From positions 2,705 to 38,417 of the forward strand of contig JAHDFR010000003.1 in assembly GCA_020628065.1 (NCBI GenBank): a DNA stretch of 35,713 nucleotides, in the 5' to 3' direction. The stretch is from Acidimicrobiales bacterium. Its GTDB lineage: Bacteria > Actinomycetota > Acidimicrobiia > Acidimicrobiales > SZUA-35. Every line of letters starts with the position of its first letter. Position 1 is the stretch's first letter. The notes below the pieces were generated by a model that was not told the origin of the DNA, did not search any database, and saw nothing but the letters and a program-made list of their open reading frames with translations. Position numbers and translations under genes: made by a program. Positions 16,504 through 24,341 of the stretch are shown here, in pieces.

Positions 16504-17643
16504 TTAGTGCGTGGCGCTGGCCACCGCACCGGTTGATTCTCTGACCATAAGCTCCGGTTTGACCACCACTTCGTGGTCGGAGTCGGGATCGTCGATCGCC
16601 GCCACCAGTTGTTGGATGAGAAGTTGGCCAAGCCGTTCGACTGGCTGATGCAGGGTGGTCAGGGTTGGGGAGATGAATCTGGCCAAGCTGACGTCGTCAA
16701 AGCCGACGATGCTGATGTCGTCCGGAACGCGAAGCCCGTGCCCGAGAAGGGCGGCCAGGGCACCGATGGCCAGCTGGTCGTTGAACCCGATTACCGCGGT
16801 TGGCGGCGGCTCTGCTGCCAGCAGTGCCTCCATGGCACTTCGGCCTCCGTCCTCCTGGAAGCTTTCGGCTGTTGTGATCAAGCTTGGGTCGACCGGGAGA
16901 CCGTGCCTGGTCAGCGCGTCGGTGAAGTGGATCAGGCGTCGGTCGCTGATGGCATATCCCGCAGGGAGGGCGATGGCCCCGATGCGTCGGTGGCCCAACT
17001 CGACCAGGTGGCCAACGGCGGAGTCGAGGCTGTCTTCGGCCCCAACCACTCGCCGGTACGGGCCGTCGACCACCGGTCGGCCGAGGGTTACGAAAGGTAC
17101 GCCGGCGCTGGAGAGAAAGGCCACTCTCGGGTCTTTGGTTTGAAGTCGGAGCAGAACGTAGCCGTCGGCTCGTTTGTGGCGAACGCTTCTTTCCAGGGCA
17201 GCCACCGGGTCTTCGTCGACGGTGGGGGAGAACAGAAGCATTTCGAACCCGTGCCGGGAAACCTCATCGACCATCGCCGTGAGGAGGTCGCCGAGGAATG
17301 GGTCAGAGAATCTTTGGGTGGTCGATGTTAGGAGTACCCCGATTGTCTGGGTTCCGCTGCCGGGGTCTTTGAGTCGCCTGGCAGCCAGATTCGGTACATA
17401 TCCGAGTTCGTCGGCTGCCGCCAGTGCCCGCCGGCGCGAGTCTTCGGCTACGTCACTGTGGCCGTTCAACGCTCGTGATGTCTGGGTCACCGAGAGGCCG
17501 GCCCTGCCTGCCACGTCGCGCAGCGTCGGCCTTCCGTTGTTGGAACCGGATTTGCCGGTACCGGCGTTTGCGGCGGCTGATTCGGCCCGAGGTAGTTCTG
17601 TTGCCGTTGGGGCGTTCACTGTCGGCTCGGTCACCGTTGACAT
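16504..17643 (-). CDS. LacI-family transcriptional repressor
   Basis: This 379-residue regulator has an unusually long, Ala/Thr-rich N-terminal extension of about 36 residues. After it come the LacI helix-turn-helix (TLRDVAGRAGLSVTQTSRALNG), the hinge helix (YVPNLAARRLKDPGS) and a periplasmic-binding-protein-like effector domain. The latter includes the family block VIGFNDQLAIGALAALLGHGLRVPDDISIVGFDD. It is divergent from the solute-import operon starting at 17863. The intergenic region holds a 16-bp palindrome with central CG, the classical form of LacI-family operators, so it most likely represses that operon until a glycosylglycerate-like ligand or its breakdown product is sensed (inference). 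Confidence 0.94.
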   Translation of the reverse strand: MSTVTEPTVNAPTATELPRAESAAANAGTGKSGSNNGRPTLRDVAGRAGLSVTQTSRALNGHSDVAEDSRRRALAAADELGYVPNLAARRLKDPGSGTQTIGVLLTSTTQRFSDPFLGDLLTAMVDEVSRHGFEMLLFSPTVDEDPVAALERSVRHKRADGYVLLRLQTKDPRVAFLSSAGVPFVTLGRPVVDGPYRRVVGAEDSLDSAVGHLVELGHRRIGAIALPAGYAISDRRLIHFTDALTRHGLPVDPSLITTAESFQEDGGRSAMEALLAAEPPPTAVIGFNDQLAIGALAALLGHGLRVPDDISIVGFDDVSLARFISPTLTTLHQPVERLGQLLIQQLVAAIDDPDSDHEVVVKPELMVRESTGAVASATH

Positions 17644-17832: not shown

Positions 17833-17862
17833 CACTTTAGCTCAAACTAAAGGGGAGTGGAT

Positions 17863-19302
17863 ATGTCCAGTTCAGAGGAGTCGAGGTCGGTATCGCGCCG
17901 TCTAGCGGCTCTATTTGCCATTTTGGCTGCATTTGCCGTTGTGGCCGCAGCCTGCGGTGGCGGTTCGGACGACGCCGAGGATTCCTCGGCCGATACCGAA
18001 GCTGCCGAAACCGAAGAAGAAGCCGAACCCGAACCAGAGCCCGAAGAAGAGGCTATGGAAGAGGAAGAAGCTTCAGAAGAAGAGGAGGCGATGGAAGAGG
18101 AAGAGCACAGCGCCGCCTCATTCGTGAGTCTCCAGTTCGCCCCGGTTGAGGAAGCCGAGAAGTTCCGAGCCATCCTCGACGAAGGCGGCTTCGAGGTCAC
18201 CATCGGTGAGGAAGGTCCCACCATCGACCAGATCAAGGCCGGTGCCGGCTCGATCGACGTCGTCGGTGCCCTTCACGGTACGTTCCCGCCGCTGACGTCT
18301 GAGGACAACATGGCCAACATGGCCGACGTCTTGGACGATCTCAGCGCTGACCGTACCTTCGCCCCGTCCTTTGTTGAGTCCGGTCTGCTGGGCTCGGACG
18401 ACTTCCTGGCCTACGTTCCCTGGGCCCAGGCCACCTACATCATGGCCGCCAACCAGGAGGCCATCGCCTACCTGCCCGAGGGTGCCGACATCGACAACCT
18501 GACCTGGCAGGACCTTTCGGCCTGGTGCCAGGCCATCCTCGACGGTGAAGGTGCTCCGAAGTGCGGCCTGCCGGTCGCCGGTCTGTTCCACCGCTTCCTC
18601 GAGGGCTATCTCTGGCCCTCGTTCACCGGTGGCATGGTTTCCGAGTTCCGTAGCCAGGGCGCTGCTGACATGCTGACCTGGGCTCGCGACGACATGTGGC
18701 CCACCGTGGTCCCCGAGTCGATCAACTACGAGTTCATGCAGGAGCCGCTGCAGTCCGGCGAGGTGTGGGTCGCATTTGATCACGTCGCCCGCCTGATCGA
18801 GGCCTTCGAGGCTGATCCTGAGAACCTGGTTGGCTTCCCGACTCCGTCTGGTCCGGTCGGCCGTGGCTTCATGCCGGTCATCGTCGGTCTGGGTATCCCG
18901 GCCGACGCTCCGAACCCGGAAGCCGGCGCCGCCGTCATCGAGTACCTGACCCGTCCGGACGTTCAGGCCCAGGTGCTTTCCGAGCTGGCCTTCTTCCCGG
19001 TCCTTGAGGGTGTCGACGTCTCCGACCTGCCGCCCGGCGTGCAGATCGAGGCTGAGGCTGTGAACAAGCTGGCCAACGCCCCCGATGCCATCCCGGCACT
19101 GCTGCCGGTCGGCCTGGGCGAGCGTGGCGGCGAGATCAACCAGATCTTCCGCGACGCCTTCACCCGAGTCGTGCTTGACGGCGAGGACATCCAGACCGTT
19201 CTCGATTCCCAGGGCGATGTCCTGCAGGCCCTGCTGGACGAGACCGGTGCTCCGTGCTGGTCACCGGATCCGGCCAGCGACGGTCCGTGCCAGGTCAACT
19301 AG
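17863..19302 (+). CDS. extracellular solute-binding lipoprotein with acidic linker (CUT1 type)
   Basis: This is the binding component of the glycosylglycerate-type importer encoded downstream. ATG 17863 follows AGGGGAG by 5 nt and is preferred to GTG 17857. A Sec signal (RRLAALFAILAAFAVVAAAC) gives lipid-Cys31. Residues about 34-81 form an almost purely acidic linker containing EEEAMEEEE twice, followed by a type-1 binding domain of about 390 residues ending in a Cys-containing tail (GAPCWSPDPASDGPCQVN), whose two cysteines could form a disulfide. From about 18300 on, codons are strongly C/G-ending (CTG, GCC, GTC, AAC), suggesting selection for high expression. A 6-bp stem CTTTAG/CTAAAG (17835-17852) overlaps the front of the ribosome binding site. 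Confidence 0.92.
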   Translation: MSSSEESRSVSRRLAALFAILAAFAVVAAACGGGSDDAEDSSADTEAAETEEEAEPEPEPEEEAMEEEEASEEEEAMEEEEHSAASFVSLQFAPVEEAEKFRAILDEGGFEVTIGEEGPTIDQIKAGAGSIDVVGALHGTFPPLTSEDNMANMADVLDDLSADRTFAPSFVESGLLGSDDFLAYVPWAQATYIMAANQEAIAYLPEGADIDNLTWQDLSAWCQAILDGEGAPKCGLPVAGLFHRFLEGYLWPSFTGGMVSEFRSQGAADMLTWARDDMWPTVVPESINYEFMQEPLQSGEVWVAFDHVARLIEAFEADPENLVGFPTPSGPVGRGFMPVIVGLGIPADAPNPEAGAAVIEYLTRPDVQAQVLSELAFFPVLEGVDVSDLPPGVQIEAEAVNKLANAPDAIPALLPVGLGERGGEINQIFRDAFTRVVLDGEDIQTVLDSQGDVLQALLDETGAPCWSPDPASDGPCQVN

Positions 19303-19513: not shown

Positions 19514-20995
19514 ATGGCAGATAACAAACAGGGGGATCCGGCACAAAGTCCGGATCATGGGGTTTCCGGCGGAGCAGCAGCACCAGCGACGTCGGCGCCG
19601 CAATCAAAGCCGGAAGCGAAAACCAAGCAGGGGTCACGGCGTCGACTGGTGCCGTATCTTCTGATTGCACCGGCGCTCATTTACTTGGCGATGTTTTTCG
19701 CCTATCCGATGTTTCAAGGACTGATGCTGGCCATCTTCGATGATGACGCCGCGCTGGTCCTGGTCGATGAACCTTCTTTGGACGGTCAAGAGGTTGAGCG
19801 ACTCACCCAGGGAACCAGGCTGAACATTCTCGGCCGTCAAGGAAACCTGTTGACCGATGACTCCGAAGGCACTGAGCTGCTCACCGAACAATGGTTTCTC
19901 GTTGTAGGCGAGTCGGCCGGCGGTGCCGAGGTCAGCGGTTGGGCACCCGAAGCCCGAGTACGAATCCGGGACGAAGCCGCCGATGGGACTCCGCTGGGAG
20001 GCACGATCCGCCCACGACTCGGCGCTGGTTCCGATGAGGCCACTCCGTTGCTGGCCGAGCCGAACGAAACCTCCGAGACGGTAGCCGAGCTCGAACAGCG
20101 GGCACCGGTCACCATCGAGGAAATCGCTGTTCTTGAGGTCTGGTTCCAGGTGCAGGCCTCCGAAGACTCCTCCAAGGTCGCCGGTTGGGCACCGTCCCGC
20201 TTCGTCGAGGTATTCGACGACGAGGAGACCGGGCGGGTGGATGAAGGCTCGGTCGGTGAGTTCACCACCGGATTCATCACCAAAATGTTCAATGACAGCT
20301 TCTTCTCCGATGCCTGGCAGACGACGCTGTTGCTGATGTTGCTGATCCTGCCACTGCAGTTTGTGCTGGCCATGTTGATGGCCCTGGTCATCGATGCCCG
20401 GTTGAAGCTTGGGTCCGGATTTCTGTACATCTTCACCTTGCCGATGGGCATGTCGGACCTGGCGGTCGGCATCTTGTTCTTCTCCATTTTCACCGGCAAC
20501 GGCCTTTTGAACAGCGTCTTGGAGGCCATCGGTATTCTTGACGGCCCCAAAACCTTCCTTTCGGCCGACACCATTCCGTGGATCATCTTCGCCATCGTCT
20601 TGGCCGAGCTGTGGCGAGCGACCTCCATCGTCATGGTGATCATCGTCTCCGGCCTGCAGGCCATCCCCAGGGAAACGTTGGAGGCAGCCGAGTTGTTCGG
20701 CGCCGGCTACTGGCAACGGGTGCGTCACATCATGTTGCCGCTGCTGTTGCCCAGCATTCAGGTGGCGTTGATTCTGCGCACCATCTTGGCCTTCCAGGTC
20801 TTCGCCGTGGTAATCGCACTGAGCGGAGGGGACATCGTGACCGTGCTGGCCAACGAGACGTATCGTCAGTACTTCGAGTTCCGCAATAACAACGTGGCCT
20901 CGGCCTACGCCCTGTTCATCCTGTTGCTCTCCATGGCCAGCGCCTTCTTCTACCTTCGAGCGGTCCGAGCCCAAACGGAGGTGGCCAACACATGA
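19514..20995 (+). CDS. MalF-type sugar ABC permease with extracytoplasmic tandem SH3b-like insert
   Basis: This 493-residue CUT1 permease is much longer than the usual roughly 300. Residues 1-44 are a hydrophilic Ala/Pro/Lys-rich cytoplasmic tail, and TM1 is about 47-73. Residues about 77-250 are a soluble acidic insert. It contains two repeats of the SH3b pattern, each ending in W-F-x-V, about 15 residues, then GWAP (QWFLV...VSGWAPEARV and VWFQV...VAGWAPSRFV); the second begins LLAEPNETSETVAELE. By topology the insert faces outward. TM2 onward is normal, with an EAA loop TLEAAELFGAGYWQRV at about 388-403. E. coli MalF also has a large periplasmic loop, but between TM3 and TM4 and with a different fold. 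No clear ribosome binding site precedes the ATG. The stop overlaps the next gene as ATGA. Confidence 0.9.
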   Translation: MADNKQGDPAQSPDHGVSGGAAAPATSAPQSKPEAKTKQGSRRRLVPYLLIAPALIYLAMFFAYPMFQGLMLAIFDDDAALVLVDEPSLDGQEVERLTQGTRLNILGRQGNLLTDDSEGTELLTEQWFLVVGESAGGAEVSGWAPEARVRIRDEAADGTPLGGTIRPRLGAGSDEATPLLAEPNETSETVAELEQRAPVTIEEIAVLEVWFQVQASEDSSKVAGWAPSRFVEVFDDEETGRVDEGSVGEFTTGFITKMFNDSFFSDAWQTTLLLMLLILPLQFVLAMLMALVIDARLKLGSGFLYIFTLPMGMSDLAVGILFFSIFTGNGLLNSVLEAIGILDGPKTFLSADTIPWIIFAIVLAELWRATSIVMVIIVSGLQAIPRETLEAAELFGAGYWQRVRHIMLPLLLPSIQVALILRTILAFQVFAVVIALSGGDIVTVLANETYRQYFEFRNNNVASAYALFILLLSMASAFFYLRAVRAQTEVANT

Positions 20996-21891
20996 CCGAT
21001 AGCTCCACATCCATCTCCCCGTCCTCGCTTCCACCGCTCGATTCGCCGGAGGTCGTTGACCTTCACCGCAAGATGAAGCGGCGAAACCTGCGGGGCCGGC
21101 TGTTCACCTACGCCTCGGCCATCCTCATTGCCCTGTGGATCCTTGTGCCGATCTTCTTTGTGTTCTCCATGGCGTTTACCACCGAGGACACCGTTCGTTC
21201 CTACCCCAAGAACTTCCTGCCGTTCATTCCGTTCTCGACCGAGACGATGACGTTCTTCCTTCAGTCCGAAGGGGTGCTGGAAAGCCTGTTGAACAGCATC
21301 ATCGTGGCCGTGGTGACTCTGGTGTTGTCCACCATCATCGCCGTGCCGGCCGGCTACGCCGTCGCTCGTTACCTGTTCCCCGGACGGGACTTGTTCCGCC
21401 TCGCCGTACTTGCGGTTCGGGCCTTCCCCATTGTCGTGCTTTCGATCCCGTTGGCTGTGTTGTTCCTGAGGGCAGGTCTGTTCGATTCGGTCTGGAGTCT
21501 GGCATTGATGCATACCGCTCTTGCTATGCCCACCACCATCTTGGTGGTGTCGAGTGTGTTTGCCAGTGTTCCTTACGAGCTGGAGGAGGCCGGTCAGGTG
21601 TTCGGGGCAACGCCGCTGCAGTCGTTCCGCTACATCGTTACGCCGCTGGTATTGCCGGGTATCGCCGCATCGGGCCTATTCACCTTCGTTCTGTCGTGGA
21701 ACGAGGTCTTCGCCGCCAGTGTCTTGACCCTTGAGAATCGGACACTCCCGGCCTTGGTGTTGACCTCGCTGGCCAACTCGCCGGACGCCTTCCAGTTCGC
21801 CGGTGGGTTTTTCTTGATGGTGCCGTCCATCATCTTCATGTTTTTCATCCGCAAGTACTTGTTCAACATGTGGGGGCAGGTGTCCAAGTGA
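20992..21891 (+). CDS. MalG-type carbohydrate ABC transporter permease
   Basis: This 299-residue partner of the SH3b-bearing permease has six transmembrane segments and an EAA loop reading YELEEAGQVFGATPLQSFRYI, slightly altered from EAAxxDG. A hydrophilic N-terminus of about 40 residues precedes TM1 (LFTYASAILIALWILVP). The start ATG overlaps the upstream stop by 4 nt (20992-20995), consistent with coupled translation. The length is typical of MalG/ThuG. Confidence 0.93.
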   Translation: MTDSSTSISPSSLPPLDSPEVVDLHRKMKRRNLRGRLFTYASAILIALWILVPIFFVFSMAFTTEDTVRSYPKNFLPFIPFSTETMTFFLQSEGVLESLLNSIIVAVVTLVLSTIIAVPAGYAVARYLFPGRDLFRLAVLAVRAFPIVVLSIPLAVLFLRAGLFDSVWSLALMHTALAMPTTILVVSSVFASVPYELEEAGQVFGATPLQSFRYIVTPLVLPGIAASGLFTFVLSWNEVFAASVLTLENRTLPALVLTSLANSPDAFQFAGGFFLMVPSIIFMFFIRKYLFNMWGQVSK

Positions 21892-21954: not shown

Positions 21955-23049
<1,095 letters not shown>

Positions 23050-23054
23050 TGGCT

Positions 23055-24341
23055 ATGAATAGTGTCGAAGATGTTGATCTCGCCCATAGGGTGGCGGTTA
23101 TGGGTCAGCGGGCCAAGCGGGTCCTCCGGGACAATGATCGTGGCCGATACACCGTCCCTACCGCCAAGCTCTATCCCTTCCAGTGGAACTGGGATTCGGC
23201 TTTTGTGGCTCTCGGTTGGGCCGAGTTCGACCCTGAGCGAGCATGGCTCGAGGTTGAGACGTTGCTGTCGTCCCAGTGGCCTTCGGGCATGGTGCCGCAC
23301 ATCATTTTCTGGACCCAGGAGGATACCTACTTCCCTGGTCCCGATGTTTGGCGGGCCAACCATGGCCCGCAGCCCAGTTCGGGTATCTCCCAGCCGCCGG
23401 TGTTGGCTTCGGTTGTCCGGCAACTGGCGACCGAGAGCGACACGGACAGGGTTAACGCCATGTTTGACGGTCTGAACCGCTGGCATCAATGGTGGCACGC
23501 GGCGCGGGATCCAAAGGGTCTAGGGGTCATCGCCATCTCCCACCCGTGGGAGTCGGGTCGAGACAACCTGCCTGACTGGGACATTCCGGCGGCGGCTATT
23601 GATGCGTCGCAGGTTGGCGAGTATGAGCGGCGGGACACCCAGCTGGTCGACGCCTCCATGCGACCGCACAAGCATGACTACGACCGATATCTGGCCCTGG
23701 TCAATTTCGGGGCCGAGCACGGCTGGGACGACGCCGCCATTGCCGCCGGCAACGAGTTCTGGGTTGTTGATCCGGGTATAACCGCCATCCTGCTGCGGGC
23801 CGAGCGGGACCTGCTCAAGCTGGGGGAGTGGGTTGGCCGAGATGCCGACGAGCTGACTTCAATCAGCACCCGCATCGAGCGGATGGAGGGCGGCTATGAC
23901 CGAATGTGGAATCCTGAAGCGGGAACGTATACCTCGATCGATCTGCGTTCGGGTGAGTACGCCACCACGGGTACTTCGGCTTCGTTCCTGGCCCCCTACG
24001 CCGGTGTGACCGAGCGGACGCCTGCTCTGATCGATGAACTGGCCACCTGGTCTCAACACTGTCCCTATCTGGTCCCGTCGTTTGATCCTCGGGACAGTCG
24101 CTTCGAGCCGAACCGATACTGGCGCGGACCGGTGTGGGCCATGGTCAACTACATGATTGCCACCGGCTTGGCCGAGACCGGGGAGGATGAGTGGGCCGAA
24201 AAGGTCCGGTTGTCGACCCGGCAAATGATGCTGCACTCCGGTTTCCCCGAGAGCTTCAGCCCGACAACCGCTGAGTCAGTCGGCGGTCTGCACTTCGCCT
24301 GGACCGCTGCCATTTGGCTGGCGTGGCTGCATAAGCTGTAG
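23055..24341 (+). CDS. GH63-family hydrolase, mannosylglycerate/glucosylglycerate hydrolase-like
   Basis: This predicted cytoplasmic glycosidase has 428 residues from ATG 23055 (GTG 23049 adds two). Its family blocks match the GH63 mannosylglycerate/glucosylglycerate hydrolase group: YPFQWNWDSAF (Asp47), QWPSGMVPHI, YFPGPDVW, SGISQPPV, HPWESGRDN (Asp170, candidate general acid), RRDTQLVDASMRP, RYWRGPVWAMVNY and GFPESFSPTT (Glu399, candidate base). No signal peptide is present, so it acts on imported solute, releasing a hexose and glycerate. As the last gene of the LacI-controlled importer operon it is the best indicator of the transported compound, a glycosylglycerate-type compatible solute. 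Other alpha-glycosides cannot be excluded. Confidence 0.8.
   Translation: MNSVEDVDLAHRVAVMGQRAKRVLRDNDRGRYTVPTAKLYPFQWNWDSAFVALGWAEFDPERAWLEVETLLSSQWPSGMVPHIIFWTQEDTYFPGPDVWRANHGPQPSSGISQPPVLASVVRQLATESDTDRVNAMFDGLNRWHQWWHAARDPKGLGVIAISHPWESGRDNLPDWDIPAAAIDASQVGEYERRDTQLVDASMRPHKHDYDRYLALVNFGAEHGWDDAAIAAGNEFWVVDPGITAILLRAERDLLKLGEWVGRDADELTSISTRIERMEGGYDRMWNPEAGTYTSIDLRSGEYATTGTSASFLAPYAGVTERTPALIDELATWSQHCPYLVPSFDPRDSRFEPNRYWRGPVWAMVNYMIATGLAETGEDEWAEKVRLSTRQMMLHSGFPESFSPTTAESVGGLHFAWTAAIWLAWLHKL

Follow-up and report, generated by a model that had tools for sequence, protein, structure and literature searches.

A tandem SH3b-like domain pair in the MalF-P2 slot of a CUT1-type ABC permease from the Acidimicrobiales

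Introduction

The role that extracytoplasmic permease domains play in the capture of solute-binding proteins (SBPs) is best known from MalF of the E. coli MalFGK2-MalE importer, in which the P2 loop (residues 91-271) contacts MalE (PMC3150292). LpqY-SugABC (7cad, 8ja7), an actinobacterial trehalose importer, includes the solved permease that is nearest in sequence to the one described here (2.9e-22), and its SugA subunit, at ~305 residues, has no insert, unlike our permease.

In the following, we describe permA, a permease from an Acidimicrobiales bacterium (assembly GCA_020628065.1, contig JAHDFR010000003.1), which bears a large insert in the P2 position. It is encoded in a window of 35,713 nucleotides, by which we mean the whole stretch of DNA that was analysed and to which all coordinates refer. 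A literature search, narrow enough that its negative outcome carries little weight, found no paper on SH3b domains within ABC permeases.

Results

Architecture of the permease and its operon

The genes for a binding lipoprotein, permA, a second permease, a MalK/UgpC-type ATPase and an MGH1-like hydrolase follow each other in this order, with a divergent LacI-type gene upstream (Table 1). PermA has a BPD_transp_1 domain (residues 283-480, 1.8e-13 in Pfam) and an EAA loop and, together with the paired permease, the ATPase and the SBP in one operon, these features place it in the CUT1 / MalF-type class.

Table 1. Features of the permA operon and of the permA insert
Feature	Residues	Coordinates	Strand	Basis or remark
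LacI-family regulator		16504..17643	-	divergent from operon
Cognate solute-binding lipoprotein (SBP)		17857..19302	+	SBP_bac_1 2.2e-15
permA	493 aa	19514..20995	+	CUT1 / MalF-UgpA-type ABC permease, bears insert
Core TM1 of permA	~45-63	19646..19702	+	hydropathy and alignment; pairs with MalF TM3
Extracytoplasmic insert	77-250	19742..20263	+	in MalF-P2 slot
SH3b-like repeat 1	~80-154	19751..19975	+	SH3_3 86-145; AlphaFold strands
Conserved insert stretch RxRxRxE...G....GTxRxxL	~148-169	19955..20020	+	alignments and model
SH3b-like repeat 2	~177-235	20042..20218	+	weak SH3_4 177-229; profile match with repeat 1
EAA cytoplasmic coupling loop of permA, EAAELFGAGYWQRVRHIMLPLLLP	~390-413	20681..20752	+	sequence
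permB, second permease subunit, without insert		20992..21891	+	Pfam
MalK/UgpC-type ATPase		21955..23049	+	OB_MalK and TOBE domains
MGH1-like glycoside hydrolase		23049..24341	+	PF22422 4e-103

The initial annotation, made from the sequence alone, had described a tandem SH3b-like pair in the TM1-TM2 loop of permA, an acidic insert of ~175 residues and a W-F-x-V ... GWAP pattern in both repeats. The pair is borne out and is conserved across orthologues. The insert is indeed acidic (38 D/E versus 12 K/R). Aligned with insert-less orthologues, in which TM1 runs straight into the short segment preceding TM2, the true insertion covers residues ~76-241, i.e. ~165 residues. The motifs were found as described, with W127-F-L-V130 followed by G142-W-A-P in repeat 1, W210-F-Q-V213 followed by G224-W-A-P in repeat 2, and a spacing of 14-15 residues from W to G. 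Immediately ahead of TM1, the permA N-terminus is rich in Arg and Lys; by topology rules, the insert loop should therefore face outward.

SH3b assignment of the insert

The SH3_3 family (PF08239, curated cutoff 27 bits) matches the whole of permA with 31.3 bits in two stretches and the insert by itself with 34.3 bits (E 2.6e-8); scanned singly, 9/9 orthologous inserts match it (best E 3.5e-13). SH3_4 (PF06347) matches repeat 2 weakly in Pfam. Judged by their profiles, which align with a probability of 97% (E 1e-10) across the W-F-x-V ... GWAP core, the two repeats are homologous to each other.

An AlphaFold model of the insert, computed from an alignment of 11 orthologues (row L016 excluded), is beta-rich and compact (mean pLDDT 85), with two sets of short strands, in each of which the GW motif leads into a brief helical turn and a closing strand; the conserved stretch at residues ~148-169 is predicted to form a beta hairpin that links both repeats. 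Searches with this model in Foldseek gave nothing significant against the PDB (best E 0.019, poor TM-scores) and no significant viral relative in BFVD, and the insert profile found no match among PDB sequences, MalF chains included. The SH3 barrel has the backing of the sequence profiles, while no solved structure matches the model significantly; the SH3b call is therefore based on these profiles and on the overall appearance of the model. A full-length model of permA (mean pLDDT 52.6) was too poor in its transmembrane part for use.

Elsewhere in the same genome, a 1850-residue open frame contains at least six SH3_3 repeats (L001, L003-L007; G000:C382:3124-5430).

Position relative to MalF-P2

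In an alignment with E. coli MalF, MalF TM3 corresponds to TM1 of permA and MalF TM4 to TM2. Because the core TM1-TM2 pair is homologous to MalF TM3-TM4, the insert, as placed by this alignment, occupies the loop homologous to the MalE-contacting P2; the MalF loop after TM3, previously set apart as a different place, is the same slot. The phmmer match between the two permeases starts at MalF residue 276, past the P2 loop, and neither this match nor the PDB profile search detects sequence homology of the insert to P2 itself. The two therefore share the site, where alignment and model put a big folded domain between core TM1 and TM2 of permA, and differ in sequence and, probably, in fold.

Among the best 30 of 49 permease matches in the genome, hydropathy reveals a comparable TM1-TM2 loop only in a PotB-type permease (L083, G000:C165:25138-25518; 434 residues). 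Its loop of ~150 residues, seemingly unrelated to the insert in sequence, likewise fills the P2 slot.

Distribution and history

A search of 198 genomes of the order recovered the full-length insert in nine and the SBP in exactly those nine; the operon is kept with the insert in these carriers, and every orthologue found in the order has it (9/9). Two further hits, L017 and L018, were rejected as weak matches within other proteins. Samples of the class and the phylum yielded 6/395 and 2/297 matches, respectively, all in the same order and mostly from the nine genomes already counted, and plasmid records gave no match to the insert.

By contrast, the insert is absent from orthologous operons in four other Actinomycetota, whose SBPs are 46-50% identical to the one described here, two Deinococcota (Meiothermus, Deinococcus) and three Alphaproteobacteria (Chelatococcus, Roseomonas, Paracoccus). 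The latter two groups contribute five plasmid-borne operons, which are intact; their permeases (280-307 residues) have no SH3b-like insert and their SBPs no long acidic linker. These insert-less operons (Meiothermus taiwanensis pMtWR-220, Deinococcus peraridilitoris, Paracoccus seriniphilus and others) share with our operon the gene set and its arrangement between SBP and hydrolase, at identities of 41-48% for the SBP, 43-59% for the permease core and 49-56% for the ATPase. In a tree built from the SBP, the permease core, permB and the ATPase, all insert-bearing systems group apart from all insert-less ones with a support of 100. This distribution is compatible with a single gain; the simplest history is one lineage-specific acquisition in an ancestor within the Acidimicrobiales, with carriers elsewhere possible given the partial samples, and an insert that is dispensable for transport as such.

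Conservation and co-evolution

Across orthologues from several families, the insert retains 46-60% identity and is under purifying selection, with a dN/dS of ~0.04-0.16 in four pairs, in some of which dS is near saturation. Conservation, the 9/9 SH3_3 matches, the low dN/dS and the homology of the repeats all argue that it is not a chance product. At the same time, it is the fastest-evolving part, with a mean identity of 52% versus 71-78% in the other parts; its conserved features are an invariant W, the GW motif and the Arg/Glu-rich hairpin.

Two tests for co-evolution with the SBP, both of low power (ten sequences), gave no SBP-specific signal: in a mirror-tree analysis, the partial correlation between insert and SBP was not positive (-0.26), and clade-specific fixed residues are no more frequent in the SBP (4.7%) than in the other subunits (4.1-4.7%).

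The binding protein and its acidic linker

The cognate SBP has a 56-residue acidic linker after its lipobox Cys, and it had been suggested that the insert might co-occur with SBPs of this kind. We rejected this link: 8/12 SBP matches in the genome, the cognate one included, have at least 20 D/E within 70 residues past the likely lipobox Cys, and in L028 the insert-bearing permease is paired with an SBP whose linker is rich in Pro, Thr and Ala (8 D/E of 63). As the insert is itself acidic, one would not expect it to attract the linker; the exception would be the invariant Arg-rich hairpin, a candidate contact surface.

At residues 224 and 236, SBPs of the insert clade, including that of the window, have two cysteines that are specific to this clade and could form a disulfide. 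In L027 (19-2448; G106:C204), an SBP frame of ~809 residues with two tandem SBP copies adjoins the insert-bearing permease; it lies at a contig start, where an assembly effect is possible.

Likely substrate

The transporter adjoins an MGH1/GH63 hydrolase with both catalytic motifs, ESGxDN with the acid Asp and the substrate motif WxWD, at the residues described in PMC6608630. Its best solved match is T. thermophilus TTHA0978 (4wva, 340 bits), named a mannosylglycerate hydrolase (PMC6608630), followed by the glucosylglycerate hydrolase of M. hassiacum (5ohc, 218 bits). The operon enzyme shares its motifs with both, but scores 329.7 bits against the NCBIfam glucosylglycerate-hydrolase equivalog NF047898, under the curated cutoff of 550 bits. 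By these matches, it is probably a mannosyl- or glucosylglycerate hydrolase, and the operon most likely encodes an importer of mannosyl- or glucosylglycerate, a sugar-acid osmolyte in either case.

Three of the syntenic operons examined (Meiothermus, Chelatococcus, Deinococcus, Roseomonas and Paracoccus) have a sugar phosphorylase, a DUF4147 protein or a glycerate kinase downstream. Among the insert-bearing operons, only a distant hydrolase (33%) is present in L024 and L026, and none was seen in L023, L025 and L027 over the stretch covered.

Discussion

Its MalF-P2 slot and its strict retention with the SBP favour a docking role for the insert. Our best guess, argued mainly from position, is that it acts as a P2-like module that docks or positions the lipid-anchored SBP, a plausible role to which we give nearly even chances. 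In this scenario, a tandem SH3b-like pair would have entered the P2 loop of the MalF-like subunit once and, exposed on the outer face, would serve as an additional platform on which the SBP is held or oriented above the translocation pore, raising its local concentration or timing delivery. A more specific version, possible but more tentative, is that an unrelated SH3b pair filled the slot independently, converging on P2 function, and clamps the lipid-anchored SBP; if so, docking domains that differ in fold could be plugged into this loop.

The insert might instead be a passive or structural decoration, tolerated in a known insertion hot spot, with no specific partner and a role mainly in stabilizing or shielding the permease. 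Its fast evolution, the lack of a co-evolution signal with the SBP, the intact operons of insert-less orthologues and the long TM1-TM2 loop of the unrelated PotB-type permease all fit this explanation, but retention in 9/9 orthologues of the order, purifying selection and the invariant W, GW and Arg/Glu-rich hairpin make it rather unlikely. More improbable still is an envelope tether, by which the pair would hold the importer under the wall through peptidoglycan stem peptides or some other wall component: bacterial SH3 domains are frequently cell-wall-binding modules, the family matched is the general bacterial SH3_3 and the hosts are Actinomycetota, but SH3b domains bind proteins as well, and the insert tracks a single importer, the best 30 of the 49 permeases otherwise having no such loop, bar the PotB-type one.

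Since some orthologous importers have the domain and others lack it, they form a natural series of deletions at the P2 site, in which the role of extracytoplasmic permease domains in SBP capture becomes testable in a case independent of MalF. The gain of a domain in a transporter core is also documented, found to date in one bacterial order.

Compared with bacterial SH3_3 and SH3_4 domains, the insert has in common the profile match above the SH3_3 cutoff, the GW motif and a compact beta-rich model, and differs by an additional loop in repeat 1 and the conserved inter-repeat hairpin. With MalF it shares the CUT1 permease context and a folded domain of ~165-180 residues in the homologous loop, which would be extracytoplasmic here as well; it differs in being built of two SH3b-like repeats, and any contact with the binding protein is putative here. 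It is a real, conserved and lineage-specific insertion of presumed function, and a variation on the P2-loop theme within a known transporter family.
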